From positions 1-33,482 of the IMG/VR virus record IMGVR_UViG_3300036791_000905: a stretch of DNA of 33,482 nt. One strand, 5' to 3'. The notes beneath the pieces were generated by a model. It worked only from the letters and a program-made list of their open reading frames with translations, did not search any database and was not told the DNA's origin. Below are positions 1-33,482 of the stretch, in pieces. Positions within the stretch are counted from its first letter, which is position 1. Every line of letters begins with the position of its first letter. A program made the translations under genes and the position numbers. This DNA comes from a virus.

Positions 1-459
1 ATCCACCACGAATGGAACGCGACCCCGGTATTGCAGCGACCGAAGCTGGTGGTAGTCGATGCGATCGGCATCGGCGCCGGCGTCGAGGACCGCTTGCGCG
101 AGCTCGACGTGCCGACGCAGGGCGTCAACGTCGGCGAGGCACCCGCGATCGAGACCCGCTACATGCGGCTGCGCGATGAGCTATGGCAGCGCTGCGCCGA
201 CTGGGTGGCCTCCGAGGCGGTGGCGCTGCCGTATGACGAGCAGCTGCGCGACGATTTGGTCGGGCCGCGCTATAGTTACACCAGCGACGATCGGCTGAAG
301 GTCGAAAGTAAAAACCAGATGCGCAGTCGCGGCGTGCCGTCGCCGGATAGCGCCGATGCGCTCTGCCACACTTTCGTTCCAGGCGCGATCAGCGCGCTGG
401 CGTTCCAGCGGACGCGCTGGGGCCAGCCGCTGCGGCGCGCCATCAGGGGGTTCGTGTAA
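1..459 (+). CDS. Phage terminase large subunit, C-terminal nuclease part (partial)
   Basis: The reading frame is open from the first base, so the gene begins left of the window; 152 residues are visible. The segment reads like the RNase H-fold nuclease half of a terminase large subunit. A hydrophobic strand ends in an acidic residue (VVVDAIGIG, Asp at visible residue 20). Near the end, KNQMRSRGVPSPDSADALCHTF-type sequence (visible residues 104-125) matches the terminase motif 'K..M..RG..SPD.aDAl..tF', whose last Asp is a metal ligand in the family. The enzyme would cut concatemeric DNA while packaging it through the portal encoded downstream. The ATPase half must lie upstream. The stop TAA shares a base with the next start (TAATG). 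Confidence 0.88.
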   Translation: MHHEWNATPVLQRPKLVVVDAIGIGAGVEDRLRELDVPTQGVNVGEAPAIETRYMRLRDELWQRCADWVASEAVALPYDEQLRDDLVGPRYSYTSDDRLKVESKNQMRSRGVPSPDSADALCHTFVPGAISALAFQRTRWGQPLRRAIRGFV

Positions 460-662: not shown

Positions 663-1447
663 GCGACGAACCCACGAGCCAGCAGCAGCCGATGGACGAG
701 CAGCCGAACCAACTCGGGCGCGGTGGTGGCATGCCGGCGGCGATTGCGGCGCTGCCGCGCGATGCCAGCGGCAAGCCGATCCCCTGGTTCGCTGCCTGGA
801 CTGACGGGCTCGTCGATTATCGGCTCACCGCACCCGGCAAGGTCGAGCGTGCGGCGGCCGGGCGCCGTTGCTGGATCTGTGGCCGTCGCAGGCTTAGCCA
901 GGCGGCCTTTTTGATCGGTCCGACCGGCGCCGTGGCGCGCGTCAGCCCCTGGCCGCCGTCGCACCCGGACTGCGCGCTTTATGCCGTGCGGCATTGCCCC
1001 TTCCTGCGATCGGGGACCGCCCCCGGACCGGGCGCGGTCACCGGTCTGGGGCGGAAGTCGCTCGCGGCAGGGCCGCCCGAGCTCGATGCGGCGGCGCGGC
1101 TCGAGCTCGCGTTTGGCATGATCGTTCTCTGGGTGGCGCCCGAGTATGGGCGGCTGGTGCGCGGCGGCGACAACGTCTTCGGGTTCGGCGAACCCTCCCG
1201 CGTGTTGTGGTTTTATCAGGGTCGCCCGGCGACGCCTTTGGAGGCGCGGCAAGCGGTGACCGAGGCGACCGCGGAGCTGCTGCGCGCGGTCAAGCCGCAT
1301 GACTCGGCGACGGCGCGCCTGGTCGGCCTGCAGTTCAAGCGCGTGCTGCGCTGGCTGCCGCGCGAGGGTCGCGAAGAGACGCCCGGTATGGACTGGGTGG
1401 GCGAACGGGACGCCGACAATTGTCCCGATCGATCGTTGCAACAGTAA
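659..1447 (+). CDS. Hypothetical protein with Cys/His cluster, carries a GGACCG repeat
   Basis: A 262-residue protein starting in the ATGA overlap with the preceding gene. Residues 71-74 form CWIC, followed by His102, Cys105, His112 and Cys113 in SHPDCALYAVRHCPF, so a small zinc-binding fold is plausible. Directly after this cluster (residues about 118-128, SGTAPGPGAVT) the protein carries a translated copy of the GGACCGGGCGCGGTCC repeat. The C-terminal half (GMIVLWVAPEYGRLV, then a helical, basic region) looks like a compact folded domain. I do not recognise a named family. Its place between terminase and portal genes suggests a virion or packaging accessory role. The gene ends at a TAA, with a good ribosome site for the next gene right after. 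Confidence 0.65.
   Translation: MSDEPTSQQQPMDEQPNQLGRGGGMPAAIAALPRDASGKPIPWFAAWTDGLVDYRLTAPGKVERAAAGRRCWICGRRRLSQAAFLIGPTGAVARVSPWPPSHPDCALYAVRHCPFLRSGTAPGPGAVTGLGRKSLAAGPPELDAAARLELAFGMIVLWVAPEYGRLVRGGDNVFGFGEPSRVLWFYQGRPATPLEARQAVTEATAELLRAVKPHDSATARLVGLQFKRVLRWLPREGREETPGMDWVGERDADNCPDRSLQQ
1012..1044 (+). repeat. GGACCGGGCGCGGTCC element, single copy inside coding sequence
   Basis: The core GGACCGGGCGCGGTCA is at 1024-1039. It is preceded at 1012-1021 by GGGGACCGCC, which resembles the start of a copy in the opposite orientation. The arms GGACCG and CGGTC(C) can pair around a GGCG loop. It is translated here as PGPGAV, just after a Cys/His cluster. Confidence 0.75.
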
Positions 1448-1465
1448 TCGAAGGAGTAGTAACGT

Positions 1466-2086
1466 ATGGCATCAATTCCGGTCACTATCGTTGGCGTGCT
1501 CACCTACTCGAACCTGGAGGTCGGCGGCGGACCGATGCCTGGCGGCCCTACTCCAATGCCGCCAATCTACTATCCCCCCGGCTCGGGCGGCGGCGGTCAG
1601 CCGCCGGGCCTGTGGCCGCCAGGGTCGGGGATCGACATGCCAAGCCACCCGATCGCCCCAGGCGGCGGGCCGGCGCATCCTATCGTCATTCCACCTGATG
1701 CCGTTGCACCGGGCGTGCCGAGTCACCCGATTTATATTCCGGTCTATCCGGCGCATCCCATAGTAATTCCACCCGAAAGCATAGCGCCTGGGGTGCCGGC
1801 GCATCCAATTGTTCTGCCACCGCCGACACCGGGCCATCCGATCGTATTGCCGCCAGGTTCGATCGATCCCGGGCCGCCGCCGAAGCCGGAGCATCCGATC
1901 GTCCTGCCACCCACGCCACCGGGTTCGGCTACCGATACGCCGAGCCAACCGATCGCGGGCGGCTGGGTCTGGATCTATTCGCCGGTCTACGGCTGGGTGC
2001 TGATGAAGGGCGGCGTGCCGCCCGGCACACAGCCGGGGCCGCCGCCGACCGAGCCGCCGGCCGGGCGGCGGGCGTTGGCGCCGTGA
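1466..2086 (+). CDS. Pro-rich HPI-repeat phage protein
   Basis: A 206-residue, extremely Pro/Gly-rich protein. It is preceded by a clear Shine-Dalgarno (AAGGAG, 1451-1456) with normal spacing to ATG 1466. Units of the form HPI(V/Y/A)(I/L)PP occur about eight times between residues 55 and 150, spaced by short Pro/Gly linkers. The end is more ordered: GGWVWIYSPVYGWVLMKGG at about residues 168-186. I recognise this layout, HPI repeats plus a W/Y-rich 'VWIYSPVYGWVL' tail, from podovirus-like prophages of Bradyrhizobium-type bacteria, where it is unnamed. It could be an extended fibrous or decoration protein. There is no signal peptide. A strong hairpin follows the gene. Confidence 0.7.
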   Translation: MASIPVTIVGVLTYSNLEVGGGPMPGGPTPMPPIYYPPGSGGGGQPPGLWPPGSGIDMPSHPIAPGGGPAHPIVIPPDAVAPGVPSHPIYIPVYPAHPIVIPPESIAPGVPAHPIVLPPPTPGHPIVLPPGSIDPGPPPKPEHPIVLPPTPPGSATDTPSQPIAGGWVWIYSPVYGWVLMKGGVPPGTQPGPPPTEPPAGRRALAP

Positions 2087-2095
2087 GGTGAATGC

Positions 2096-2128
2096 GGGCG
2101 GCCGGCTCTCCGGCCGCCCGGGACTTTT
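2096..2128 (+). terminator. Candidate intrinsic terminator upstream of the PEP-CTERM gene
   Basis: GGGCGGCCGG (2096-2105), loop CTCT, CCGGCCGCCC (2110-2119): a perfect 10-bp stem, followed by GGGAC and four T (2125-2128). The T run is short and displaced, so termination may be partial. The hairpin separates the HPI-repeat gene from the PEP-CTERM gene and ends just before the latter's ribosome site. Confidence 0.55.
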
Positions 2129-2145
2129 GGGGAAGGAGTTGAAAC

Positions 2146-2790
2146 ATGCTGAAAATGCTTCTGTTGGCCGGGGCGGTGGCGCTGAGCGGCAGCGCCGCAC
2201 ACGCGACGCTCAGTCTGACCGTCACCGACAACGGCGCGCCGGTCTCGGGCACGACCACGCTGACGCCTGGCGGCCTCGATTTCACCAGCACGAGCGACCT
2301 GGCGTTCGCCTCGATCAGCGTCAGCGGCGTCGGCTTCCCGGCGATCCCGAGCCCTGATCTCGGCACGATCACGCTGGATGCGCATTTCGGTGGCACCGGG
2401 ACGCATGTGCTGGCCATCGACATGCTGCAAAGCGGGCTGACCGCTTTCCCCGGCGGCGTCCAGACGACGACGGACACCGTCAATCAACTGATCGGCTCGC
2501 CAGGGCCGACGACATTGACGCAATTCTTCAACGGCGTGCAGTTGAACACCCATACGACAGCGGCTGGCATCCCGGTCGACACGGCGAGCTTCACCGATAC
2601 GCTGGGACCGGTCGCCGGGGCCTTCACCGATGCGCAGAGCATCAGCGCCACGTTCGGCGGTGGGGCGCCGCAGGTGCTCGAGGCGGCGATGCAATTCCGC
2701 AGCGCCGCCGTGCCGGAGCCGGCGGCGATCGTCGTGTTGGGCGTCGGCCTGATTGGCCTCGCGGCGGTCCGTCGGCGGCGGGCCGACTAG
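2146..2790 (+). CDS. PEP-CTERM sorting domain-containing exported protein
   Basis: A 214-residue protein with a strong ribosome site (GGGGAAGGAG, 2129-2138). The N-terminus is a classic signal peptide (hydrophobic LLLAGAVAL, predicted cleavage AHA|T after residue 20). The middle is Thr/Ser/Gly-rich and beta-like. The C-terminus is a textbook PEP-CTERM tail: VPEP at 189-192, a hydrophobic helix at 193-208, then RRRR at 209-212. In bacteria such tails direct proteins to exosortase for membrane processing and surface display. The gene lies between phage head genes, behind its own hairpin, which is the layout of a cargo (moron) gene. Exosortase is not in the window, so the host would have to supply it. 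Homology to a virion protein is not evident. The sorting-signal call is secure; the role in the phage is not. Confidence 0.85.
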   Translation: MLKMLLLAGAVALSGSAAHATLSLTVTDNGAPVSGTTTLTPGGLDFTSTSDLAFASISVSGVGFPAIPSPDLGTITLDAHFGGTGTHVLAIDMLQSGLTAFPGGVQTTTDTVNQLIGSPGPTTLTQFFNGVQLNTHTTAAGIPVDTASFTDTLGPVAGAFTDAQSISATFGGGAPQVLEAAMQFRSAAVPEPAAIVVLGVGLIGLAAVRRRRAD

Positions 2791-2796
2791 CGGCGG

Positions 2797-5583
2797 ATGT
2801 CCGACGCGGCCGGCTCACCTGGCATCCCGGACCGGGCGCGGTCCCCGGACCGGGCGCGGTCCCCGGACCGGGCGCGACCACTGGGGTCCGGGGTGCTGGG
2901 CTCGCCCCGGATCGGCAGTCCGCGGGTCAAGCGGCCGCGCAGCCTGGCCGAACTCGGCACCCAGCGAACTGATGGTGGCTGGGATAATCCGAGCGCTGCC
3001 GCGCGCCCCGGACCGGGCGCGGTCCCTGATACGGTCCTCGGCACGATGGACGATCCGGCGCTCGGCGTGCCGCTCGGGCCGGGGCAGCAGCAGAGCTACG
3101 AGCAGGTCGTCATCGCCCGCCCCGCGGCGCTCAGCACCGCCGATGTCGAGCGGCTGCTGACGCTCAATTTCCGTGAGGCGCGGGTCTATGACGACCGGCT
3201 ACAGATCGCCCGCGCGGCGGCGTTTCGCCTCTACAACGGCGAGCCGATGGGCGACGAGGAGCCGGGTCGGAGCCAGATGGTGCTGACCGAGGTCAAGGAT
3301 ACCATCGGCGCGACCATGCCGACCGTCGTGCGGGTCTTCGCCGGCGCCGATCATCCGGTCGAATTCTCGCCGCGGGCCGATGGTGATGACGAAGAGGCGC
3401 TGCAGGCCACCGATTACGTGCAGCATGTCGCATTCGTGGAAAACGACGGGTTCCGGGCGCTGCACGACTCGGCGCTCGATGCGTTTCAATTGAAAGTAGG
3501 CTGGATCAAGTGGTGGTGGGACTACTCGGTCGATGTAAAGACCGAGCAGTATTTCGGCCTGCTGCAGCCGCAGGCGGCGGCCCTGCTGACCGAGCCGGGG
3601 GTCGACGCGATGCGGGTCATCCGGCGCACCGCGACGCCGGACGAGCGGGCCGGCCTGCTGGCCTCGCCGGAGGCGCAGATCCTCGGGCTGGGGCCAAATT
3701 CGCCGATGCTGGTCTGGGATCTCACGATAACGCGGCGGACGCCGCGCAATCGGCCACGCCTCGCGGCGATCCCCTCCGAACAAGTGTTGATCGATCCGGA
3801 CGCCTCGGGGCCGGCCGATGCGCGCTTCATGGCGCACTGGCGCATTGTGACCGTCAGCGACCTGGTCGCGCTGGGTTTCGATCGCGCGCAGATCGAGACC
3901 CGGATCACCCAGTTGCAGCAGCAACAAAACCGTGTCACCCGCCGGCGCGACCGTCTGGCGGCGGTGGTGCCGCGCCAGCAGAGCCATGATCCGGCGATGC
4001 GCCGGGTGCGCTACCTCGAGGCCTGGCTGCGCTTTGATGGTGACGGCGATGGCGTCGCCGAGCTGCATCGTTGCCACGCCATCGGTGATGCCGGCTTTCT
4101 GCTGCTCGGCCATGAGCCGGCTTCGCATATTCCGCTGGCGCGGATCTGCCCGTTCATGGTGCCGCACCGGGCGATCGGTGAAAGTTATGCCGACCGCATC
4201 GGCGATCTGCAGCGGGCGATGACCCGGGTGTGGCGCAACATCCTCGACTCGATGGCCGAAAGCATCCACCCGCGCACCGTCATTGAAGACGGCCAGGTAC
4301 CGATCGATGACGTGATGAACACCGAGATGGGGGCGGTGATCCGCGAGCGCAAATCGGGCGCGGTGCGCGAACTCACCAAGCCGTTCGTCGGCCCGGCGGC
4401 GCTGCCGATGCTGGATACCCTGCAGGCGATCCGCGAAAGCCGCACCGGCGTGACCCGTACCTCGCAGGGGCTGACCGCCGAGGCGCTGCAATCGACCACG
4501 GCGATGGCGGTCTCGGCGCAGATCCAGGCCTCCGCTGACCGGCTCGAATTCGTCGTGCGGGTCATGGCGGAAGGGTTCCGAGATTTGTATGGCGGCTTGC
4601 TCAAACTGCTCTGCGAGCATCAGGATCGCGCGCGGATGGTGCTGTTGCGAGGCAAATGGGTGCCGATTGATCCGCGCGCCTGGCACGCCGGCTTCAACAT
4701 CGTTGTCAAAGTCGGGATCGGCCGCGGCTCGCTCGCCGAGCGGTTGAATGTGTTCAAGGGCATCCTCGAGCAGCAGATGCAGGCGATCACCACGATGGGG
4801 CCGAACAATCCGCTCTGCGGGCTCGGCCAGGTGCGCAATACGATTGCCGATATGTGCGCCACCGCGGGGATCATGAATGTCGGGCGCTATTTCAAGCCGC
4901 TGCCAACGAATTACGTGTTTCAGCCGCCGCCGCAGCCGCCTAATCCGGATGTGCTGCTGGCCCAGGCGGAACAGCAAAAAGTTGCGCTCTCGGCGCAAAA
5001 TGACGGCCACAAAAACCAATTGCAATTGGTCGAAGCTTTGCTCGAGGACGATCGGCTACGCGACGAGGCGCGGGTCAAGGCGCTGCTGCAGGCGGGCGAT
5101 CTCAGCGGCAAATACGGAGTGAGCGTCGATCCGGTGGCGCTCGGCCGTCTCTTGGCGCGCAATCCGATGAGCCCGGCGATGCAACTCGCCTCGCAAGGCC
5201 CGGGGGCGGTGCCACCCGGGGCCGCGCCGGTGCCAGGCGCGGCTCCGGGTGTGATGCCGCCCGGACCGGGCGCGGTCCCCGGTGGGCCGGGTGCCCCTGG
5301 TGCGTCGGGGCCAGGGGGGCGGCCGGGTGCTTCACCACTCGGCGGTCCCCCTGGTGCTGGCGGGCCGCGGCCGCCCGGATCAGGCGCGGTCCCCGGACCG
5401 GGCGCGGTCCCCGGACCGGGCGCGGTCCCCGGTGGGCCGCAGCCAGCTGCCTCGCCTGGCGCGCTGGCCCCGTTCCTGCCGCCTAATCTGATCACCGCGC
5501 TGGCGCAGGCGAATCGCGGCAGCTTGGTCCCGCCGGCGCGGGCGCCTGGTGCCCCAGGGGCAATGCCGGGGATGAGCTTCTGA
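2797..5583 (+). CDS. Phage portal protein with repeat-expanded N- and C-termini
   Basis: A 928-residue protein. Residues about 115-700 resemble podovirus (P22-like) portals: GRSQMVLTEVKDTIGATMP followed by a conserved helical stretch, KVGWIKWWWD, DRIGDLQRAMTRVWRNILDS and an Arg/Thr-rich 'RTGVTRTSQGL' region. The portal would be a dodecameric ring at one capsid vertex through which terminase pumps DNA. Both ends are expanded by the GGACCG repeat. The N-terminus reads (PDRARS)x3 at residues 11-27 and PGPGAVP at 71-77; the C-terminus (about 800-900) is Pro/Gly-rich with several GPGAVP units. ATG 2797 follows the PEP-CTERM stop by 6 bases but lacks a clear ribosome site. ATG 3046 (MDDPALG) is a possible alternative that would drop the N-terminal repeats. 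Confidence 0.85.
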   Translation: MSDAAGSPGIPDRARSPDRARSPDRARPLGSGVLGSPRIGSPRVKRPRSLAELGTQRTDGGWDNPSAAARPGPGAVPDTVLGTMDDPALGVPLGPGQQQSYEQVVIARPAALSTADVERLLTLNFREARVYDDRLQIARAAAFRLYNGEPMGDEEPGRSQMVLTEVKDTIGATMPTVVRVFAGADHPVEFSPRADGDDEEALQATDYVQHVAFVENDGFRALHDSALDAFQLKVGWIKWWWDYSVDVKTEQYFGLLQPQAAALLTEPGVDAMRVIRRTATPDERAGLLASPEAQILGLGPNSPMLVWDLTITRRTPRNRPRLAAIPSEQVLIDPDASGPADARFMAHWRIVTVSDLVALGFDRAQIETRITQLQQQQNRVTRRRDRLAAVVPRQQSHDPAMRRVRYLEAWLRFDGDGDGVAELHRCHAIGDAGFLLLGHEPASHIPLARICPFMVPHRAIGESYADRIGDLQRAMTRVWRNILDSMAESIHPRTVIEDGQVPIDDVMNTEMGAVIRERKSGAVRELTKPFVGPAALPMLDTLQAIRESRTGVTRTSQGLTAEALQSTTAMAVSAQIQASADRLEFVVRVMAEGFRDLYGGLLKLLCEHQDRARMVLLRGKWVPIDPRAWHAGFNIVVKVGIGRGSLAERLNVFKGILEQQMQAITTMGPNNPLCGLGQVRNTIADMCATAGIMNVGRYFKPLPTNYVFQPPPQPPNPDVLLAQAEQQKVALSAQNDGHKNQLQLVEALLEDDRLRDEARVKALLQAGDLSGKYGVSVDPVALGRLLARNPMSPAMQLASQGPGAVPPGAAPVPGAAPGVMPPGPGAVPGGPGAPGASGPGGRPGASPLGGPPGAGGPRPPGSGAVPGPGAVPGPGAVPGGPQPAASPGALAPFLPPNLITALAQANRGSLVPPARAPGAPGAMPGMSF
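2829..2880 (+). repeat. Three tandem GGACCG elements (18-bp period)
   Basis: Cores are at 2829-2844, 2847-2862 and 2865-2880 (the last reads GGACCGGGCGCGACCA and is degenerate). The unit is GGACCGGGCGCGGTCCCC, exactly 18 bp, so tandem growth keeps frame. In the portal frame it reads PDRARS. Confidence 0.85.
3010..3025 (+). repeat. Single GGACCG element
   Basis: A perfect GGACCGGGCGCGGTCC. In the portal frame it reads PGPGAVP, a different frame from the tandem copies 130 bp upstream in the same gene. Confidence 0.85.
5263..5278 (+). repeat. Single GGACCG element in portal C-terminus
   Basis: A perfect copy of GGACCGGGCGCGGTCC, read as GPGAVP within the Pro/Gly-rich portal tail. Confidence 0.85.
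5377..5428 (+). repeat. Three tandem GGACCG elements in portal C-terminus
   Basis: A variant copy (GGATCAGGCGCGGTCC) at 5377-5392, then perfect copies at 5395-5410 and 5413-5428, all at 18-bp spacing. They read GSGAVP, GPGAVP, GPGAVP. Confidence 0.85.
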
Positions 5584-6425
5584 TGTCGGGCAGCGGCGGC
5601 GGCGGCGACCAGGGCCGCGATCTGCTAGCGCCAGTGGGGCCGGACATCGTCGGCTCGCGGCCGAGCGGTCCGGGGACCGCGCCCACGATCAATCCTGATT
5701 TCATCCAGGCGTTCCAGAATTTTCAGCTGCCGGCGGGCGCCGAATGGCAGACCGCGCCAACCATGCAGACCCTGCTCTCCGGCGCCGTGCCGAGTATCCA
5801 GTCGATCGACCCGTCGCTCTACGCCGGCGCCTACAACACCCAGAATCCGCAGCTCACCAGCTACACCGATCCGGTCAGCGGACAGACCGTGCCGGTCAAT
5901 CCCTGGACCATCGATCCGGCATCGGAAGCCAAATACGCGCCATTGATCGTCTCGCCGGCCGAGCCGGCGCCTGGCGGCACGATGGATCTCAAGGCGGGAA
6001 CCTATACCGACCCGACCAATCTCAGTGGCGGGGCTTTCGACGCCTACAATTTCAATCTGGGCAGCGGCACGGCGACGCCGACCGAGCAGTCGATGTATAA
6101 CGTGTATGAAAATATCATAAAGAACCAAATGAGCCCGGCCATGAGCCTGCTGACCGAGCTGCCGATCATGGCGTTCTCGGCGTTGGCGCCCGAGCTCGGC
6201 GGCGCTTTGCTCGGTGCGGCGGCCGGGGCCGCCGGGGCCGGGGCCGGGGCCGGCGGCTTGAGCCTTGGCAGCCTCGGTACCAACCTGTTGGGCCAGGGCA
6301 GCCTGCTGGGGCAGGGGCTGAACGCAGCGGGCCAGCTGTATCAGCAGGTCAGCCCGATTATTTCTGCCGCGAAAGATGTGCGCCAGATCGTGCAGGCGCT
6401 CAACCCGCCGCGGGCGGAAACATGA
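5583..6425 (+). CDS. Hypothetical phage protein with Gly/Ala-rich hydrophobic C-terminus
   Basis: A 280-residue protein whose start shares a base with the portal stop (TGATG). The N-terminal 150 residues are Pro/Thr/Tyr-rich with no family I recognise. Residues about 190-235 are hydrophobic and Gly/Ala-rich (ALAPELGGALLGAAAGAAGAGAGAGG), which could insert into or lie on a membrane. A reverse-orientation GGACCG element is translated as SGPGTAPT near residues 27-35. The gene lies between portal and scaffold genes and its stop overlaps the next start (ATGA). A minor virion or ejection-type protein is possible by context only. Confidence 0.6.
   Translation: MSGSGGGGDQGRDLLAPVGPDIVGSRPSGPGTAPTINPDFIQAFQNFQLPAGAEWQTAPTMQTLLSGAVPSIQSIDPSLYAGAYNTQNPQLTSYTDPVSGQTVPVNPWTIDPASEAKYAPLIVSPAEPAPGGTMDLKAGTYTDPTNLSGGAFDAYNFNLGSGTATPTEQSMYNVYENIIKNQMSPAMSLLTELPIMAFSALAPELGGALLGAAAGAAGAGAGAGGLSLGSLGTNLLGQGSLLGQGLNAAGQLYQQVSPIISAAKDVRQIVQALNPPRAET
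5668..5685 (-). repeat. Reverse-orientation GGACCG element, partial
   Basis: GGTCCGGGGACCGCGCCCA: the GGACCGCGCCC part (5674-5684) matches the complement of the repeat, but the second arm has decayed. It is the first copy in reverse orientation; all earlier copies are forward. Confidence 0.55.
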
Positions 6426-6712
6426 GTGACGCACCATGGCCGGTCACCGGCGGGCTCGAAACATTGTCGGCCGACGAGAAGGCGCGATACGCCGGGGAAT
6501 TGCTCAACAATCCAGTCTTGGGGCTGATCCTCAACGATATGGAGGCCGATGCGGTGGATACCTGGCGGCAGTCGGCGCTGCCGCTGCAGCGCGAGGAGTG
6601 CTGGCACCGGGCGGCCGTCATCAACGAGATGCGGTTCCGGCTGGCGCGTGCGGTCGAGGACTATCAGTTACGCAACGAACGCGAGCGACGTAAACAAATC
6701 AGGCAGGACTAA
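6422..6712 (+). CDS. Small helical phage protein
   Basis: A 96-residue protein starting in an ATGA overlap with the gene before it. It is rich in helix formers and charge, with Trp/Arg-containing segments (DAVDTWRQSALPLQREECWH) and a Lys/Arg-rich end (RNERERRKQIRQD). No signal, membrane segment or known motif is seen. The position before the scaffold gene suggests a head-assembly accessory. Function unknown. Confidence 0.65.
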   Translation: MSDAPWPVTGGLETLSADEKARYAGELLNNPVLGLILNDMEADAVDTWRQSALPLQREECWHRAAVINEMRFRLARAVEDYQLRNERERRKQIRQD

Positions 6713-6727
6713 CAGGAGGGCAGTCGC

Positions 6728-7201
6728 ATGAGTCTCGGTCCACGCAGCGCCCCGCCAGGGGCGTTGTCTACCCACAATCAATCCGCTCGCTCGGCGCGCG
6801 CCGACGGCGGCCATCTGCGCGAGCCGGGACGGGGCGCGGCGGATACGCCAGCATCGGCGGCCACGCGCAGTAAGGTGCTGCAGGAGGATGTCGGACGCGC
6901 CGATCGGCGCATGATGAGCGGCGTCAGCACCGCGACGCCGGCGCCGCTGCCGGCATCTTCGCCGGCGAGCAGTCCCGCCGAGCGGTCCGGCGGCAGCCGT
7001 TCGATGCGGATTGCCGAGCCGCCGGTGCGCACCGCTGACATGCAGGTGCGCACATCGAAAAGCGCTGGCCTGACCCCGGCCTTCCTGCTGCGAGGACCGT
7101 CGAAGACCCCCGGCGTGAATGCCTTCACGTTGCGGGGGCGCAGCGTCGGCCCGCCGAAGGCTGGCGGCCTGCCGGCGGCCTTCAAGGGATCGCGCCGGTA
7201 G
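6728..7201 (+). CDS. Hypothetical basic, low-complexity phage protein
   Basis: A 157-residue protein with an excellent ribosome site (AGGAGGG, 6713-6719) ahead of ATG 6728. The composition is Pro/Ala/Ser/Arg-rich and probably disordered; the end is basic (KTPGVNAFTLRGRSVGPPK). I do not recognise a family. It lies 2 bp upstream of the scaffold-like gene, so the two are probably co-translated. A virion-internal or assembly role is possible but unsupported. Confidence 0.5.
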   Translation: MSLGPRSAPPGALSTHNQSARSARADGGHLREPGRGAADTPASAATRSKVLQEDVGRADRRMMSGVSTATPAPLPASSPASSPAERSGGSRSMRIAEPPVRTADMQVRTSKSAGLTPAFLLRGPSKTPGVNAFTLRGRSVGPPKAGGLPAAFKGSRR

Positions 7202-7203
7202 CA

Positions 7204-8454
7204 ATGGCTCAGCCGCCCGCAACTCGACCGCCCGCCTTACCGGGGACCGCGCCCGGTCCCGGCCCTCCGGCAGAGCCCGCAACGCCGGGGACCGCGCCCG
7301 GTCCCGGACGTGTGCCGCGCGAAGGCCGGCGCCGAACCGGGAAGTTCGAGCGGGTCGAGGTCAAGCCGCCTGAACGTGGGCGCTCGGTTGCCGAGGGCCT
7401 CACCGAGCTGCAACGCCGGCGTGCCGCCGGCGAGCCGCCGAGAGGACGCCAGCGACAACCGGCCGAGACCTACACCGCGCCGGACGGCTCGCGCATTGCG
7501 GTGACCGCGCCCGGTCCGGGGGCGCCGCCGCCGGCCTCGCAGACCGCGCCCGGTCCGCTCGTTCTGCCGTTGCCGCCACTGCTGCCCCTGGAGGCACCGC
7601 CAGCGGCTCCGGCACCAGCGCCAGCAGCAACACCACCCGCCGCCGCGGCAGCGGTCCAGGCGCCCCCTACAGGCGAAGCAGGGCCGCGCCTGGCGGCCGG
7701 CGACCCGCAGCAGGGCGTGCCGATCGCGATCGACGGCCAGACGGTCAGCGTCCCGCTCGGCGAGCTCGTCAGCGGCTACCTGCGACAGCGCGACTACAGC
7801 CAGAAGACGCAGGCCTCCGCGCGGGAGATGCGGATCGCCCAGGAAAGCCAGGCCGCGTTCAACGCCGCGCGGGGAAACCTCGAGGCGCGGCTCAATCAGA
7901 TGCTGGCGCTCGATCCGGACGAATTCGCCCGGCCGATCGATTGGGTCGCATTGTCGAAGACGGATCCGATCGGTTATAGCCAAAAACACGCACGCTACCT
8001 GGCGCGGCAGGAAATGCTGGCCGAGCAGCAGCGGCTCGCCGAGCTGCGCCAACGCGAAGAAGCCGGGCGCAAGCAATATGCGCTGGCGACCGGACATCAG
8101 ACGCTGGCGCAGATCATTCCCGGCTGGACCGATCCGCAGACCCGCCAGCAGCTGCAGGCGCGCCTGCTCGGCCAGCTGCGGCAGCGCGGCTTTACCGAAG
8201 ACGAGATCGCCCGACGCGAGATGATCGATCCGAGAGAGGTGATCATCTTGCTCGAGTCGAGCCTGTGGGCGGCACATGCGGCGCAAGGGGCGCCGCAGCC
8301 GCAGCCGACGGCGGCGCGGACACTGCCCGGCAACGGCGTCATGGCGGACGGCCGCGGGCCCGATCTGACCGGGCTCGACGACCGCTTCGGCCGCACCCGC
8401 AAGCTCGACGACGGGCTGGCGTTGCTGCGCGCACGCCGCGCCCTCAATGGTTGA
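7204..8454 (+). CDS. Phage capsid scaffolding/assembly-like protein
   Basis: A 416-residue protein. Residues 1-160 are disordered, Pro/Ala-rich and carry four reverse-orientation GGACCG elements (PGTAPGPG twice at 13-35; TAPGPG at 101-106 and 114-118). From about residue 172 the sequence is family-like: an IAIDGQTVSVPLGELVSGYL segment, then RQRDYSQKTQ and a long charged helix. This matches the 'v.v.G....v.l.El..gYlrq.dYt.Kt' motif of phage capsid assembly scaffolds. Coiled-coil-like helices (about 195-290) and a SKTDPIGYSQKHARYLARQ segment follow. Such proteins template procapsid assembly and then leave. The major capsid gene is the next gene downstream, as expected. Confidence 0.72.
   Translation: MAQPPATRPPALPGTAPGPGPPAEPATPGTAPGPGRVPREGRRRTGKFERVEVKPPERGRSVAEGLTELQRRRAAGEPPRGRQRQPAETYTAPDGSRIAVTAPGPGAPPPASQTAPGPLVLPLPPLLPLEAPPAAPAPAPAATPPAAAAAVQAPPTGEAGPRLAAGDPQQGVPIAIDGQTVSVPLGELVSGYLRQRDYSQKTQASAREMRIAQESQAAFNAARGNLEARLNQMLALDPDEFARPIDWVALSKTDPIGYSQKHARYLARQEMLAEQQRLAELRQREEAGRKQYALATGHQTLAQIIPGWTDPQTRQQLQARLLGQLRQRGFTEDEIARREMIDPREVIILLESSLWAAHAAQGAPQPQPTAARTLPGNGVMADGRGPDLTGLDDRFGRTRKLDDGLALLRARRALNG
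7244..7304 (-). repeat. Two reverse-orientation GGACCG elements
   Basis: Perfect GGACCGCGCCCGGTCC at 7244-7259 and 7289-7304, spaced 45 bp. In the scaffold frame both read GTAPGP. Forward copies elsewhere read GPGAVP or PDRARS. Confidence 0.85.
7502..7556 (-). repeat. Two reverse-orientation GGACCG elements (one-base variants)
   Basis: TGACCGCGCCCGGTCC at 7502-7517 and AGACCGCGCCCGGTCC at 7541-7556, each with a single change in the first arm. They read TAPGP in the scaffold frame. Confidence 0.75.
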
Positions 8455-9742: not shown

Positions 9743-10116
9743 GCGAGATCGCGTCATGGGCCAATCCGGCCGCGGGGACGAAGACCGAGGTGCTGCGCGA
9801 GGGCGGCGACCGCGGCCGGTCCGGCCGCGTGCTGATCCGCACGCGACAAGCGACCGGGCCGATCCTCGAAAGCTGTCATGAGGCGAGTCGCCTCTACGAT
9901 CCGGTGAACGAACGGAAGGTGGATGGCGGCTTTCGCTGGGTCGCGCGGCTGCCGGCGGTGGTGGTGATGCAGCTCAACTTGAGGGGCATCATGCAGGGGC
10001 AGGAGGTGATCGACGAAAAGCGCTTCCTGATGTTCCTCGACGACATCGACCATCGGCGGTTGCGCTGCGACAACGGCCGCCGGTTGCGCAATCTGCCGAA
10101 AACGGGGGTGGTGTGA
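9739..10116 (+). CDS. Hypothetical head-associated protein
   Basis: A 125-residue protein starting at a GTG that overlaps the capsid stop (GTGA). The second half (ARLPAVVVMQLNLRGIMQG, then VIDEKRFLMFLDDIDHRRL) looks like a compact alpha/beta fold; the N-terminus is charged and flexible. I recognise this type of short ORF between capsid and adaptor genes in podovirus-like prophages but know no assigned function. A capsid accessory or head-closure role is inferred from position only. Its own stop overlaps the next GTG start. Confidence 0.65.
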   Translation: MSEIASWANPAAGTKTEVLREGGDRGRSGRVLIRTRQATGPILESCHEASRLYDPVNERKVDGGFRWVARLPAVVVMQLNLRGIMQGQEVIDEKRFLMFLDDIDHRRLRCDNGRRLRNLPKTGVV

Positions 10117-24514: not shown

Positions 24515-25029
24515 CGCGAATCTCCCAGGGCGTGCCGAACCGAACGCCAGGCCTCCGTGTAAGAACCCGGCGGCCCGGGAGTAAGCGGATCGGGAGTCGC
24601 GCCCATTACGACGACAAATCCGACCTCGGGATCGCCCCGTGTGTGGATGTGCGCGAGAATGTCCAAGGCTTGCATCAGAGGCATCAGGTCTGTGGTCTCG
24701 CCAGGGTCATTCATCGTGCCGATCTTCTCAGCTCCGCGATCGCGGAACCAAGTATCCAGCTTCCCGCCATTCGGCCATTCCTTAGTGGGTGGTATGTGCC
24801 GCCAGGTATTCCAGAGTGGCAGGCCACGCTCGTGCAACATGCGCGCGAGCCTCCACTGTTCGTCGTCTGCCTCGAGTATCAGGCAGCCGTCGCAAGTCTG
24901 GCTTAAATCATCGGCCAACTTGCCCCAGACGGCGCCACTCTGGGAGGAGATTTCGTGGCCGCAATCCATTAGGTGAGCGCCAATGATATTTTCGCACTGA
25001 GTGCCTCGGCCAAGGATTAGGATCCGCAT
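24511..25029 (-). CDS. Rossmann-like accessory protein overlapping integrase
   Basis: A 172-residue protein, minus strand. The N-terminus MRILILGRGTQCENIIGAHL is a strand-Gly-rich loop-helix typical of nucleotide-binding Rossmann folds. A second strand (CDGCLILEADDEQWRLARML) and a third (VGFVVVMGATPDPLTPG) follow, with a WNTWRHIPPTKEWPNGG segment between. I recognise no family; it is not evidently a methyltransferase or oxidoreductase. Its start lies 13 bases inside the end of int1, and its stop overlaps the 77-aa gene. It would thus be expressed with the integrase, in the prophage state or early on, and may be a host-fitness or defence gene. Composition is less GC-extreme than that of its neighbours. 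Confidence 0.55.
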   Translation of the reverse strand: MRILILGRGTQCENIIGAHLMDCGHEISSQSGAVWGKLADDLSQTCDGCLILEADDEQWRLARMLHERGLPLWNTWRHIPPTKEWPNGGKLDTWFRDRGAEKIGTMNDPGETTDLMPLMQALDILAHIHTRGDPEVGFVVVMGATPDPLTPGPPGSYTEAWRSVRHALGDSR

Positions 25030-26129
25030 CGTGCCGGTCCTCCCATCGCGTCCTCAAGCACGGCGATCGCCTGTGCGTCATCGCGCGGCAGCGCGTGGGC
25101 GTAGACGCCGAGCGTCGTCCTGATATCGGCGTGGCCGAGCCGCGCCTGCACGGCGCGAGGGTTGATCCCTGCGGAGATCAACGCGGTCGCGTGTGCGTGC
25201 CGGAGCCCGTGCAGCGACACGCCATCCGGCAGCGCTCGGCGGACCTGCTGCGAGACCGTGTCGGGATTGGCAAACGAGAGCCCGTCAGGGCCAGGAAACA
25301 CCGGCAGGCTATCTAGGGGCACCCCAGCGGCCAGAGCCCGTTCAGCGGCCCGGATTCGCCGCGCGCGGAGCAACTCCGCGGCGGCTGGCGGCAACGCCAC
25401 GCGGCGGGCGCCGGCGAGCGTCTTCGGTGTCTTCCTTCCCGCCAGTGGACAGAGCGAGCCGGTCACCGCGAGGGCGGCGAAGTCGGCCTCGATGTCGCGC
25501 CAGCGCAGCGCCAGGAGCTCGCCACGGCGTAGGCCCGTCGCCAGGGCCAGCGCGATCAGTTCACCGATTGTTCCCGACTCGGTGCCGACTCGGGAACTGA
25601 CATTAGAAAAAAAGAAAGCGAATCGCTCGGGGGGTAGCACATCGCGCTGCCGGGGCGGCTGGCGCAGATGGCGGATCGCGGCCAGCGGATCGGCGCCGAT
25701 GACGCCGAGTCGCAGCGCCTCGGCGGTGAGCGCCTTGGCCAGCCGGAGCGCCGACCAGATGGTGACCGGCGACAGGCCGCGCTCGAGCATGGCGCGCTGC
25801 AGGTCGAGGCCATGGCCGGCGGTGAGGCTGCCGATGCGGCGGCTGCCGAGGGCGGGCAATACGTGCAGGTCGAGCAGCTCGCGGTAGCGGGCTGCGGTCG
25901 CTGGTGCCAGGCCGGGCGTGGCGAGCGTCATCCAGCTTTCTGCCCAGGCGGCGAAGCTGGTCGCGGCCGAAGCCGGCGGGGCGCCGCGGCTGCCGAGCTC
26001 GGCTGCGAATCGGGCGCCTTCGGTGCGTGCCTCGGTCTCGGTTGCGGCGTAGCGGTAGTGGTCGTGGCCTTGGTGACGGACCCGGATTTGCCAGGCGGCG
26101 CCGCGCTGGCGGATATTGAGGGAAGCCAT
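25017..26129 (-). CDS. Tyrosine recombinase / phage integrase (int1)
   Basis: A 370-residue protein, minus strand. Residues 1-45 are an AP2-like arm-binding start (IRQRGAAWQIRVRHQGHDHY). Residues 55-150 are the SAM-like core-binding domain. Residues about 165-355 are the catalytic domain: Arg201 in ATGLRRGELLALRW, Lys233 or Lys236 in GRKTPKT, His307 and Arg310 in SLHGLRHAHATAL, His333 in RLGHADI and the nucleophile Tyr343 in TLGVYAHAL. All catalytic residues are present. It would recombine attP with a host attB. The segment at residues 172-188 is odd: seven T, then a 28-bp hairpin in coding DNA. The start is near a possible -35 TTGACA (26191-26186, complement). Confidence 0.87.
   Translation of the reverse strand: MASLNIRQRGAAWQIRVRHQGHDHYRYAATETEARTEGARFAAELGSRGAPPASAATSFAAWAESWMTLATPGLAPATAARYRELLDLHVLPALGSRRIGSLTAGHGLDLQRAMLERGLSPVTIWSALRLAKALTAEALRLGVIGADPLAAIRHLRQPPRQRDVLPPERFAFFFSNVSSRVGTESGTIGELIALALATGLRRGELLALRWRDIEADFAALAVTGSLCPLAGRKTPKTLAGARRVALPPAAAELLRARRIRAAERALAAGVPLDSLPVFPGPDGLSFANPDTVSQQVRRALPDGVSLHGLRHAHATALISAGINPRAVQARLGHADIRTTLGVYAHALPRDDAQAIAVLEDAMGGPARCGS
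25570..25613 (-). other. Hairpin plus T7 tract within int1
   Basis: GTTCCCGA (25570-25577) and TCGGGAAC (25590-25597) form an 8-bp stem with an inner CGG-TG-CCG stem. On the coding strand it is preceded, 9 bases upstream, by seven T (25613-25607) followed by CTAA. The arrangement looks like a slippage site with a downstream hairpin, but lies in an open frame. Confidence 0.4.
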
Positions 26130-28164: not shown

Positions 28165-29232
28165 CTAGAACCGCCGGCTCAGCTGGCCCAGCGCCTCGGC
28201 CGCCGGCACAACGAGGATCTGCTGGTCGGCATAGCGGATATACGCCTGGAAGCTTTTTTCGCTGGTGTGTCCGGTCAGCGCCATGACGGAGCGCGTCGAC
28301 ATGCCGAGCTCGATCAGTCGCGTCGCCGCGGTCGCCCGCAGCCCGTGCATCGAGCGATCCGCCGGCAGCTGCGCTGCCTTGCGGGCATCGCCGAACCGGC
28401 GGCAGAACGTCTGCACGTCGGGCCAGCTGGTGCCGCCTTCCCGCGTCAGGATGGTCACCGCGGAGGCCTCGGCGCGCCAGGTGGCGAACCGCTCCGGCCA
28501 TGGCGCGCCGAGCGGGATGATCAACTGCTGGCGGAAGCGCTTGGTCTTCATCGGCGCGATCTTGAGCGCCCGCCCGTCCCAGTCGTGCCAGGTCAGCCGG
28601 ATCAGGTCGCCGAGCCGCGCTGCGGTCGCGAGGGCGAGCCGGATGGCGCGGGTCAGCGGCTCCGGCATGCGCTTGAGGAACGCCTCGATGTCGCGATCGG
28701 TCCACGGCATATGGCCGTGTTGTATCGGATAATTCTTGATCCCGCGGGTCGGATAGAGCTCGCCGATGCCGCGGTTTTGCCGGCCCCAGGCGTAGAGCGA
28801 GCCGAGCGCCTGCAGAAAGATGTTGGCCGCGCCGGTGCTGTGCTTGCCCCAGCGCTCGAGCCCTGATTCGGCGATCGCGGCGCGGATCAGCGCCACCCGC
28901 TCACGCGTCAATTCATTGACCTTGAGCCGCCATAGCGGCTCAAGATGGCCGCGATGCAGTGTTCGGTCATAAAGCTCCTGTGTCGCCGGCGCGAGGTTGG
29001 TCCATTCCGGGCTGGCCTGAAATTGTGCGATCAGCTTTTCCAGTGCCATCTCGCTCCCCACGGTGACGCCCCAGCGGGCGCCGGCGCGCGGCTTCCTGGT
29101 CGGCAACGGGAGCTGCAGGTCTGCTGGGGCAATCGGTTTGCCGGTAACCCGGTCATAGAAATAATCTCGGAGCGTGCCATTCTTGAGGCGGCGGGTGATA
29201 CGGCGGGGATAATCGACACGTTGGCGTCCCAT
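28165..29232 (-). CDS. Tyrosine recombinase / phage integrase (int2)
   Basis: A 355-residue protein, minus strand. I chose ATG 29232 (MGRQRVDYPRR) because GGAGG lies 8 bases before it; the frame extends further upstream without one. The catalytic domain (about 175-345) has Arg206 in ATAARLGDLIRLTW, Lys229 in APMKTKR, His296 and Arg299 in SMHGLRATAATRL, His322 in LTGHTSEKS and Tyr331 in QAYIRYA, so it appears active. It differs strongly from int1 and belongs to a different branch, the Rac-like/'RLGDLIRLTW' type common in Rhizobiales phages. It is followed by the 218-aa gene and preceded by an AlpA-like regulator. Confidence 0.87.
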   Translation of the reverse strand: MGRQRVDYPRRITRRLKNGTLRDYFYDRVTGKPIAPADLQLPLPTRKPRAGARWGVTVGSEMALEKLIAQFQASPEWTNLAPATQELYDRTLHRGHLEPLWRLKVNELTRERVALIRAAIAESGLERWGKHSTGAANIFLQALGSLYAWGRQNRGIGELYPTRGIKNYPIQHGHMPWTDRDIEAFLKRMPEPLTRAIRLALATAARLGDLIRLTWHDWDGRALKIAPMKTKRFRQQLIIPLGAPWPERFATWRAEASAVTILTREGGTSWPDVQTFCRRFGDARKAAQLPADRSMHGLRATAATRLIELGMSTRSVMALTGHTSEKSFQAYIRYADQQILVVPAAEALGQLSRRF

Positions 29233-29290
29233 CGGAGCGGCCTCCATTGCGATCGCGGATCTAGCTCCGCGAAAACGACGTAAGCCTGCC

Positions 29291-29470
29291 TTACCTGGTT
29301 GCCGGCGCAACCGCAAGCCCGGATTTCGTTTTCAAAAATCCTGCCGCCCCCTGCAGCCCTAGAGCGACCGTGGGTGGATGATGGTGGGTCCAAGCCTGAC
29401 ACTTGAGGCCGAACGAAAGGAAGGCAAAGCCGGGCGGCAGGTCGGCGGTCGTTGGTTTACTGTCGCTCAT
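29291..29470 (-). CDS. 59-aa hypothetical protein
   Basis: Minus strand; ATG at 29470 overlaps the stop of the 24-aa frame (ATGA) and has GAGG 5 bases before it. The product reads SDSKPTTADLPPGFAFLSF, GLKCQAWTHHHPPTVALGLQ and a basic end. The HHH and single Cys are notable. No membrane segment or known family. It is the third gene of the AlpA-int2 operon. Confidence 0.5.
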   Translation of the reverse strand: MSDSKPTTADLPPGFAFLSFGLKCQAWTHHHPPTVALGLQGAAGFLKTKSGLAVAPATR

Positions 29471-31552: not shown

Positions 31553-33395
31553 CGCCAATGTCATTGCTTTACCGCCGCGGCGCCGCCGCGGTGGCCTCAA
31601 GGGGCTGCCGCCCGATCTGCCGTATACTGCGCTCGGTCTCGACGAGCATTGTCTCTACGTGCTCGATCCGAGCATGATCCTGTGCCGTATCGGCCGCCAC
31701 CAAATCAGCCGATCGTGGATCGTCGGGCTGTTCGGCGAACAGCAGGAGCTGCTGTATCGGATCTACGGTCGCATGCGGCAGACCAAGGAAGGCGAGATAC
31801 CGATCCCGCGGTCGTTTCACGCCGATCGCGCCGCCGATGATCTGCAGCGGCAATGCGCGGCCTGCGGCAAATTCGATGCGCTGGCGCAGCTGCGCGGGAT
31901 CGGTGCCTGGCGCGGCGAGAACGATGATCTGATCCTGCATCTGGGCGACCGGCTCTGGATCCCCGGACCGGGCGCGCAGAAGCGGGAAGTCATTGCCCCG
32001 CTCGGTCGCCGCGGCGCGCATATTTACCCGCGCCGCGTCGAAGCGCCGCCGCCGTTCGGCCTCGCCGTCAGCCCCGAGCCGGCCAAACTGTTGCTGGCCT
32101 GGCTTGCGGCCTGGCGTTGGCAACGGGCGATCGATCCCAAGCTGCTGCTCGGCCTGATCGGCAGCAGCTTCCTGGCCGGCGCGCTCGAGCATCGGCCGCA
32201 GCTCGACATCACCGGCGAGGCTGGCGTCGGCAAGACCGGCCTGCAGCAGTGTGTGCGCCAGCTGCTCGGTCCGCGCATGCTGTTGTCGTCCGACGCCTCG
32301 GCGGCCGGGATCCGGCAGCGTATCGGCTGTGATGCGCTGGTGGTCGGCCTCGACGAGGCCGAGTCCGCGGCCGATCCACGTCGCATCGCCGATTTGCAGC
32401 TGCTGCGGCGTGCCAGCTATGGTGACGCCGGCGATGCGATCCGTGGCGGCATCGACCATTCGCCGGCGACGTTTCCGTTGCGCAGCGTGTTTTTGGCAAG
32501 CGCTATTACTCTGGCGCCGATGGATCCGGCGATGCGCTCGCGCACCGCCGTCCTGACGCTGCTGGGACCACCCGATGTCGAAGTGAGCTACGCGCCGGCG
32601 CGCTCGGAGTGCGCCATGGGGATCGTCGGCACGCAGCTGCTGCGGCGGCTCACCGATCAATGGCGCAAGCTGATCAGCGAGACGTTGCCAGCCTGGCGGG
32701 CGCTGCTCGGCGGCCACGGTTTCGATGGCCGAAGCAGCGCCACCTATGGTACGTTGCTCGCCTGTGCGCATGCGCTGTTGAGTGATGCGGTGCCCTCTGA
32801 GCGCGACTACCAGGAGCATGCCGGGGAGCTCGAGCAGTTCGCTGCCGAGGACAGAGAGGACCGCGTGTCCTCGCATGAGCGGTTACTCACGTTCCTGTTC
32901 TTCCAGATCATCGAGTCGCTTCGCCGCAGCGGTGACCGCGAGACGCTGATGAGCAAGGTGCTGGCGGCCGGCGGCCACGGCAGGACCCCCGGCAGCTATG
33001 CCCGGCCGGAGGCGTTGGCGATCGTCGAGGCGCGCGAAAACGAGGAGGCCAAAGAGGCGCAACGCGAACTCGGGCAACTCGGCATCGCGATCGTCACCAG
33101 TGACACCGGGGCCAGGCTGTTGGCGTTTGCAGTCAACTCGCCGTGGCTGGAGACGGTGCTTAAAGATACACCGTTCGCCGCGCTGCGCGGTCGCGCTGAG
33201 GGACATGTGCGGACGCTGTTGCGCGCGCCGGGTGCCAGGCGCATGCGGGTGCGCTTCTTCGGCGGCAGTCGATCGCGCGCCGTGGCGCTGCCCCTCGCTT
33301 ATGTCTTGCGCGGCATAGTCGGTCCGGATCCGGAGCGGACAGCAGAAGCATGGGCTAATATCATGACCGGCGATCCGATCGCCGACGAAAGCTAG
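31542..33395 (+). CDS. P-loop ATPase / replicative helicase-like protein
   Basis: A 617-residue protein; ATG 31542 lies 11 bases inside the Toprim gene and starts the conserved-looking sequence (MPDDANVIALPPRRRRGG). Walker A is GEAGVGKT at 225-232 and Walker B is ALVVGLDEAES with Asp271-Glu272. A C-x2-C (CAACGK, about 105-110) lies in the N-terminal part. Residues about 330-350 (SVFLASAIT...MDPAMRSRT) resemble the sensor and Arg-finger region of phage DUF927-like or VirE-type ATPases. With Toprim it forms a primase-helicase pair. A truncated GGACCG element at 31965-31976 is translated as IPGPGAQ near residue 142, just before the ATPase domain. Confidence 0.72.
   Translation: MPDDANVIALPPRRRRGGLKGLPPDLPYTALGLDEHCLYVLDPSMILCRIGRHQISRSWIVGLFGEQQELLYRIYGRMRQTKEGEIPIPRSFHADRAADDLQRQCAACGKFDALAQLRGIGAWRGENDDLILHLGDRLWIPGPGAQKREVIAPLGRRGAHIYPRRVEAPPPFGLAVSPEPAKLLLAWLAAWRWQRAIDPKLLLGLIGSSFLAGALEHRPQLDITGEAGVGKTGLQQCVRQLLGPRMLLSSDASAAGIRQRIGCDALVVGLDEAESAADPRRIADLQLLRRASYGDAGDAIRGGIDHSPATFPLRSVFLASAITLAPMDPAMRSRTAVLTLLGPPDVEVSYAPARSECAMGIVGTQLLRRLTDQWRKLISETLPAWRALLGGHGFDGRSSATYGTLLACAHALLSDAVPSERDYQEHAGELEQFAAEDREDRVSSHERLLTFLFFQIIESLRRSGDRETLMSKVLAAGGHGRTPGSYARPEALAIVEARENEEAKEAQRELGQLGIAIVTSDTGARLLAFAVNSPWLETVLKDTPFAALRGRAEGHVRTLLRAPGARRMRVRFFGGSRSRAVALPLAYVLRGIVGPDPERTAEAWANIMTGDPIADES
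31965..31976 (+). repeat. GGACCG element, truncated, inside helicase gene
   Basis: GGACCGGGCGCG, preceded by CCCC as in other copies; the second arm is lost. It reads PGPGAQ in the protein. Confidence 0.6.
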
Positions 33396-33409
33396 ACCGG
33401 ACGCGGTCC
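33394..33409 (+). repeat. GGACCG element variant at helicase stop
   Basis: AGACCGGACGCGGTCC, followed by CCGG as in other copies. It spans the end of the ATPase/helicase gene (stop at 33393-33395) and is the only copy seen mostly outside a gene. The remaining bases to 33482 show no assignable gene. Confidence 0.55.
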
Positions 33410-33482
33410 CCGGCACGCGTCGCGTGCGATTGTTGTCGGCGTGCGGCGGTGGTGTTCGGGGCCTCCGATGGTTCGCGCGTCT

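Follow-up and report, generated by a model that had tools for sequence, protein, structure and literature searches.

The late genes of the phage in IMG/VR record IMGVR_UViG_3300036791_000905 (33,482 bases, hereafter the window) carry many copies of a repeat of 16–18 letters, GGACCGGGCGCGGTCC, raising the question of whether a piece of DNA or a favoured peptide has multiplied there, and by what route. A sequence-only reading had proposed that a hairpin-forming DNA element is spreading through these genes in different frames and on both strands. We find that the repeat is real, lineage-specific and expanded in this phage lineage at the DNA level.

Abundance of the repeat in the late genes

When copies of GGACCGGGCGCGGTCC were collapsed by place (window 1.0–7.6 kb), 8, 11, 13 and 15 were counted at 0, 1, 2 and 3 mismatches (cumulative), in line with the at least 14 copies or variants first claimed. 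Shuffling synonymous codons with every protein kept intact gave 0.03, 0.75, 3.4 and 9.2 copies at the same thresholds; the excess is clear at 0–2 mismatches and weak at 3. Dinucleotide shuffles gave 2.8 +/- 1.9 matches compared with the 28 observed (≤3 mismatches, both strands counted). The tandem period was exactly 18 bp, as the sequence-only reading had it. In a sample of 108 loci, each 4 kb or longer and together about 1 Mb of almost exclusively phage DNA, the window alone had a 14-mer that occurs on both strands and at no fewer than five sites; a dispersed two-strand repeat is not a common pattern within that sample.

DNA rather than peptide

The in-gene copies use both strands and three of the six reading frames. 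Forward GPGAVP is read in the gene at 659–1447 (gene 659) and in the portal gene, forward PDRARS at the portal start, and reverse GTAPGP in gene 659, in the gene starting at 5583 and in the scaffold gene; the portal alone shows two frames, as had been noted. All six frames of the unit are indeed stop-free, with the correction that the sixth reads GPRPVR and not GPRPVP. Of the three frames in use, two give linkers rich in Pro, Gly and Ala. Codons within the copies are unusual for the phage (GGA is 7% of Gly, CCC 15% of Pro and TCC 10% of Ser codons), and the codon choice of individual copies had a probability of 1e-3 to 1e-4 under the phage's own usage. The clearest sign that DNA and not peptide is repeated comes from two different genes: 1018–1043 matches 7499–7524, read as reverse complement, perfectly over 26 nt and with the shared variant GGTCA, yet the peptides encoded differ. 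The three frames, both strands, rare codons, synonymous-codon null and inverted match, together with apparently intergenic copies in a second contig (L012, below), support the conclusion that the repeated entity is DNA, not peptide.

These same observations bear on the proposal that Pro/Gly/Ala-rich linkers were selected as peptides, with the shared DNA a by-product of codon-level slippage. Most in-gene copies do encode such linkers, and the portal tails of related phages are also Pro/Gly/Ala-rich, but with a different sequence. Given the PDRARS frame, the reverse-strand and apparently intergenic copies, the rare codons and the synonymous-codon null, and the contradiction posed by a perfect opposite-strand match encoding different peptides, we consider this explanation very improbable.

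A second contig and the circular genome

A 16-mer scan of IMG/VR returned 25 contigs, and L012 alone had more than one exact copy; the single matches in the remaining contigs look chance-like. L012 overlaps the ends of the window over 266 nt at 97.7% and 143 nt at 99.3% (window 1–266 and 33340–33482; L012 1–266 and 5930–6072, opposite orientation), and its reverse strand completes the gene for the terminase large subunit. Judged from these sequence overlaps, L012 most likely supplies the arc that the window lacks, from this phage or a sister phage, which would give a circular genome of about 39.1 kb. A CC junction and the 18-bp period are common to the arrays of both contigs, and some L012 copies are apparently intergenic. 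An assembly artefact is unlikely because the repeat is present in two separate IMG/VR records.

All 13 clear sites on the circle of about 39.1 kb fall inside 10.1 kb, a quarter of the genome. The chance of such clustering is about 1e-6, or 5e-4 when one site is taken per gene or region. The family goes further than the copies first noted between 1 and 7.6 kb, with an additional fragment inside that range (5667–5689) and members outside it at 31963–31978, at 33394–33409 and in L012. Chance may account for three matches: the half copy at 31963, the copy with 3 mismatches at 5197 and one with 2 mismatches at 9807.

L012 also contains an open frame on the strand opposite the terminase (2145–2879) that by eye resembles a decayed terminase-like fragment, with one repeat array just before it and another near its end.

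Absence from related phages

Portal and capsid searches identified nine related contigs (L034–L039 and L056–L058) with 58–74% portal/capsid protein identity and about 70–73% DNA identity where aligned. Copies were absent from L034–L039 at ≤2 mismatches and from L056–L058 at ≤3 mismatches. One of these, L057 (IMG/VR 3300036791_001009, capsid 69% identical), belongs to the same metagenome record series as L012.

In gene 659, protein alignment revealed nine extra residues (RSGTAPGPG) straight after an invariant CPFL that are missing from the homologues in four related phages, and in an AlphaFold model this insert sits where a low-confidence loop (residues 120–148) begins. The portal start is extended by about 40 residues, the 2826..2880 array being missing from the relatives, and the portal tail is longer, with the 5374..5432 array not found in the shorter tails of the relatives; the AlphaFold portal model (mean predicted local distance difference test score, pLDDT, of 34) was too poor for use. 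The scaffold segments with copies were likewise missing from scaffold homologues. The in-frame segments of these three genes therefore have no counterpart in the homologues, to a precision that is not nucleotide-exact. As the related phages are without copies, the alignment did not show the same peptides conserved at the same places, the outcome that would have counted against a DNA element.

The absence from relatives also bears on whether the units are binding sites for a phage or host protein (in packaging, transcription or DNA organisation) whose number is selected. The sites surround the terminase genes and occupy the capsid-assembly region, and phages with dispersed short repeats of presumed function exist, such as SAS/ESAS in the cluster K mycobacteriophages (PMC3203893). 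But conserved function would predict conservation and the copies are missing from all close relatives with these genes; they are also mostly intragenic without a link to gene starts, and the Cro-like regulator at 30.2 kb has none in its vicinity. We regard a binding-site family as quite improbable.

Search for a host source

A 20-mer searched in 84,980 species genomes gave four single actinobacterial matches only, which look chance-like. For GC-rich DNA the chance level can be gauged from a Micromonospora genome of 7.1 Mb, in which 7 places matched at ≤1 mismatch. Blastn searches of plasmids and phages gave partial matches at or near chance level, nearly always at one place per record, and literature searches in a limited set of papers did not find a phage case of this kind.

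The main rival explanation is a host-derived REP-like family, that is, a palindrome multicopy in an unsequenced host, moved by a host transposase (RAYT or other) and captured by the phage. Small palindromic repeats, single or dimeric, are present in alphaproteobacterial coding genes (PMC3733652), and the copy at 1011–1044 is an inverted dimer, an arrangement common in REP families. The nearest portal relatives with named hosts include Sinorhizobium, Ochrobactrum and Bradyrhizobium phages, making an alphaproteobacterial host plausible. Against this source stand the species genome search, the lack of a GTAG or CGTC tag at any consistent position, the failure to find a transposase in the phage, the limitation of clear copies to a quarter of the genome and the head-to-tail arrays, which are a rare arrangement in REP families (PMC3733652). 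On balance a host REP-like origin appears unlikely, though less so than a binding-site family.

Anatomy of the unit

The core GACCGGGCGCGGTC lies inside a full unit, CCCCGGACCGGGCGCGGTCCCCGG, that has CCCCGG direct repeats at both ends, and it is because these repeats bound the unit that the tandem period is 18 bp. Single copies contain the core only, and their variable flanks give no pointer to a fixed transposition unit. The arms GGACCG/CGGTCC had been expected to form a hairpin. The 6-bp hairpin of a single unit was no more stable than composition-matched shuffles (z -0.3 RNA, -0.6 DNA), and only the inverted dimer at 1011–1044, in which a 2-mismatch copy (1014–1029, minus strand) is joined to a 1-mismatch copy (1025–1040, plus strand), folded clearly better (z -2.2 to -2.8). 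In arm-variant copies pairs were broken or left as G-T wobble with no compensatory change. Because folding was at shuffle level and arm changes were uncompensated, we rejected the hairpin as a functional feature of single units.

An HUH (Y1) transposase (PF01797) was not found in the window, L012, L056 or L057, no transposase was found in the phage among the families searched, and a target-site duplication was established nowhere. The spread claimed by the sequence-only reading is therefore upheld as a lineage-specific expansion at the DNA level and not as transposition, the empty sites also being inexact.

A proposed model of local copying

We tentatively favour, at a little under an even chance, multiplication of a short DNA element within the phage lineage by local copying, tandem growth and a tolerance filter. 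In the first step 15–26 nt of the unit would be copied, in either orientation, into nearby non-homologous places. The simplest routes would be a template switch by the polymerase, or repair driven by microhomology, while the phage DNA is being replicated. The 26-nt inverted identity, which includes a private variant, supports such site-to-site copying. Slippage or unequal recombination between the CCCCGG repeats could then add 18 bp at a time, producing the CC junction that the arrays of both contigs show. Finally, only copies that leave the frame intact, placed in loops, disordered stretches or intergenic DNA, would survive. The unit is suited to such a filter because it has no stop in any of its six frames and encodes Pro/Gly/Ala-rich linkers in two of the three that are used. 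Local template-switch copying is favoured over a host REP-like family because one quarter of the genome contains every clear site and the search of the phage revealed no transposase.

Several points weigh against local copying. No intermediate or polymorphic site was seen, and for this reason we infer the copying rather than observe it. The empty sites are inexact in nucleotides with diverged flanks (about 72% identity), many lie in low-complexity tails that align loosely, and the site in gene 659 can also be aligned ungapped at the DNA level. The clustering could instead reflect where in-frame insertions are tolerated, and the repeat could have come from the host. The circle is built from short overlaps of 266 and 143 nt, and the separate contig that supplies them may belong to another strain.

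A bolder form of the idea, that this is a minimal selfish repeat of 16–18 bp, open in six frames and without its own transposase, copying itself either way into phage virion genes, we hold to be possible but doubtful. If true, few dispersed repeats that encode protein would be smaller, and this one would live in a virus. The phage, with identical units from a recent burst that relatives at about 72% DNA identity do not have, offers a small system in which to follow gain site by site through population reads. It would also illustrate how the copying of DNA can equip capsid-assembly proteins with disordered linkers.

Individual copies and gene context

The copies, with the portal and head scaffolding protein genes, are listed in Table 1. 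The copy at 7286..7307 is probably a local duplication of the one at 7241..7262. The late region contains the end of the terminase gene, gene 659 (whose small product shows a cysteine/histidine pattern), a PEP-CTERM protein, an SU10-type portal, the head scaffold and an SU10-type major capsid protein.

Table 1. Repeat copies and copy-bearing genes (window coordinates unless marked L012)
Feature	Position	Strand	Details
Inverted dimer in gene 659–1447	1011..1044	+	encodes RSGTAPGPGAVTG; frames GTAPGP and GPGAVP
26-nt segment, perfect reverse complement of 7499–7524	1018..1043	+	includes private variant GGTCA
Portal protein gene	2797..5583	+	PF23899 SU10_portal 4e-168, phrog_1216; five copy sites including weak 5197
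Tandem array near portal gene start	2826..2880	+	2.8 units of 18 bp, third unit degenerate; frame PDRARS
Single exact copy, portal N-terminal extension	3007..3025	+	frame GPGAVP
3-mismatch look-alike, portal C-terminal Pro/Gly/Ala tail	5197..5212	+	GPGAVP frame; may be chance, low-complexity tail
Single exact copy, portal C-terminal tail	5260..5282	+	frame GPGAVP
Tandem array, portal C-terminal tail	5374..5432	+	one 2-mismatch and two exact units, 18-bp spacing; frame GPGAVP
Fragment across unit junction, near start of gene 5583–6425	5667..5689	-	reverse complement GGGCGCGGTCCCCGGACCG; encodes GPGTAP
Head scaffolding protein gene	7204..8454	+	phrog_3927 2.9e-28; four copies
Exact copy near scaffold gene start	7241..7262	-	frame GTAPGP
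Exact copy in scaffold gene	7286..7307	-	33 nt, 88% identical to 7241..7262 copy, 45 bp apart
1-mismatch copy (GGTCA variant), scaffold gene	7499..7524	-	26-nt inverted match to 1018–1043
1-mismatch copy (GGTCT variant), scaffold gene	7541..7556	-	flanks unlike those of other copies
Left half of unit (CCCCGGACCGGGCGCG), primase/helicase-like gene	31963..31978	+	weak, could be chance
2-mismatch copy, 3' end of primase/helicase-like gene	33394..33409	+	weak; same copy as L012 6003
Copy in gene upstream of large terminase	L012 1336		frame PDRARS
Two-unit array	L012 2017–2050		no clear gene there
Further two-unit array	L012 2812–2845
Weak copy	L012 6003		same as window 33394 copy

The PEP-CTERM protein (2146–2790), between gene 659 and the portal gene, has the motif (PF07589), a bacterial sorting signal, at its C-terminus. 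A Pro-rich protein at 1466–2086 has a separate, imperfect repeat at the peptide level around HPIVIPP / HPIVLPP. Two differing tyrosine integrase genes about 2 kb apart on the minus strand (25017–26129 and 28165–29316) suggest a temperate lifestyle. Rfam families and tRNAs were not found in the window.

Comparison with known systems

The parallel drawn by the sequence-only reading was with the Rickettsia palindromic elements (RPE), which are 105–146 bp with long stem-loops (PMC2229807). In concept it stands: in RPE and their Wolbachia counterparts, as here, repeat DNA is found in frame in the genes of unrelated proteins, in loosely structured segments, and also between genes. Like RPE-1-type elements the phage repeat forms in-frame insertions in coding genes whose homologues are without them. 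It departs from them in size, being 16–18 bp and tandem at 18 bp whereas RPE-1 has long terminal inverted repeats; the segment common to sites is 15–26 bp and arrays reach about 59 bp. RPE-4 and RPE-6 carry a CGTC tag that the phage repeat is without.

GTAG/CGTC REPs are also small palindromes, sometimes intragenic, and single, dimeric or clustered, and the CGTC class, typical of Alphaproteobacteria, has a CGTC tag, an 8–9 bp stem and A/T pairs at positions 1 and 2 (PMC3733652). In contrast, the phage stem GGACCG is 6 bp and starts G-C, G-C, its arrays are head-to-tail, no RAYT was found in the phage and the 20-mer was not found in the alphaproteobacterial genomes searched. GTAG REPs have GTAG unpaired at one palindrome end and an associated RAYT (Y1/HUH) transposase. 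In the phage, GTAG or its complement was not present within 8 nt of 12 copies, and CGTC/GACG was near only one of the 12, not at the unit end. When the traits of miniature inverted-repeat transposable elements (MITE), namely terminal inverted repeats, a target-site duplication and a related transposase, were examined, the unit was bounded by direct repeats (CCCCGG), the flanks of single copies varied and no transposase was found in the families searched.

SAS/ESAS are likewise short repeats with many copies per phage genome, and sequenced hosts and other phages have practically none. SAS are found where translation of non-structural genes begins, almost always in a single orientation, and they are conserved in relatives (PMC3203893). 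The phage repeat is instead found mid-gene within structural genes, on both strands, and is missing from the nine related contigs, unlike a start-associated or operator repeat. PARCEL repeats also lie in coding sequence, have dyad symmetry and are thought to be shuffled around genomes, but constitute a conserved 25-residue protein domain (PMC2996958), whereas the phage repeat uses three reading frames. A simple tandem repeat (variable-number tandem repeat, VNTR) would be a head-to-tail array at a single locus; this was rejected, as the copies, arrays included, occupy about 13 scattered sites and both strands. Coding palindromic repeats have been described in a few bacteria, and the route by which CGTC repeats reach new sites without a dedicated transposase is an open question (PMC3733652). 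On present evidence the phage repeat behaves like the coding palindromic repeats and is a member of no named family.

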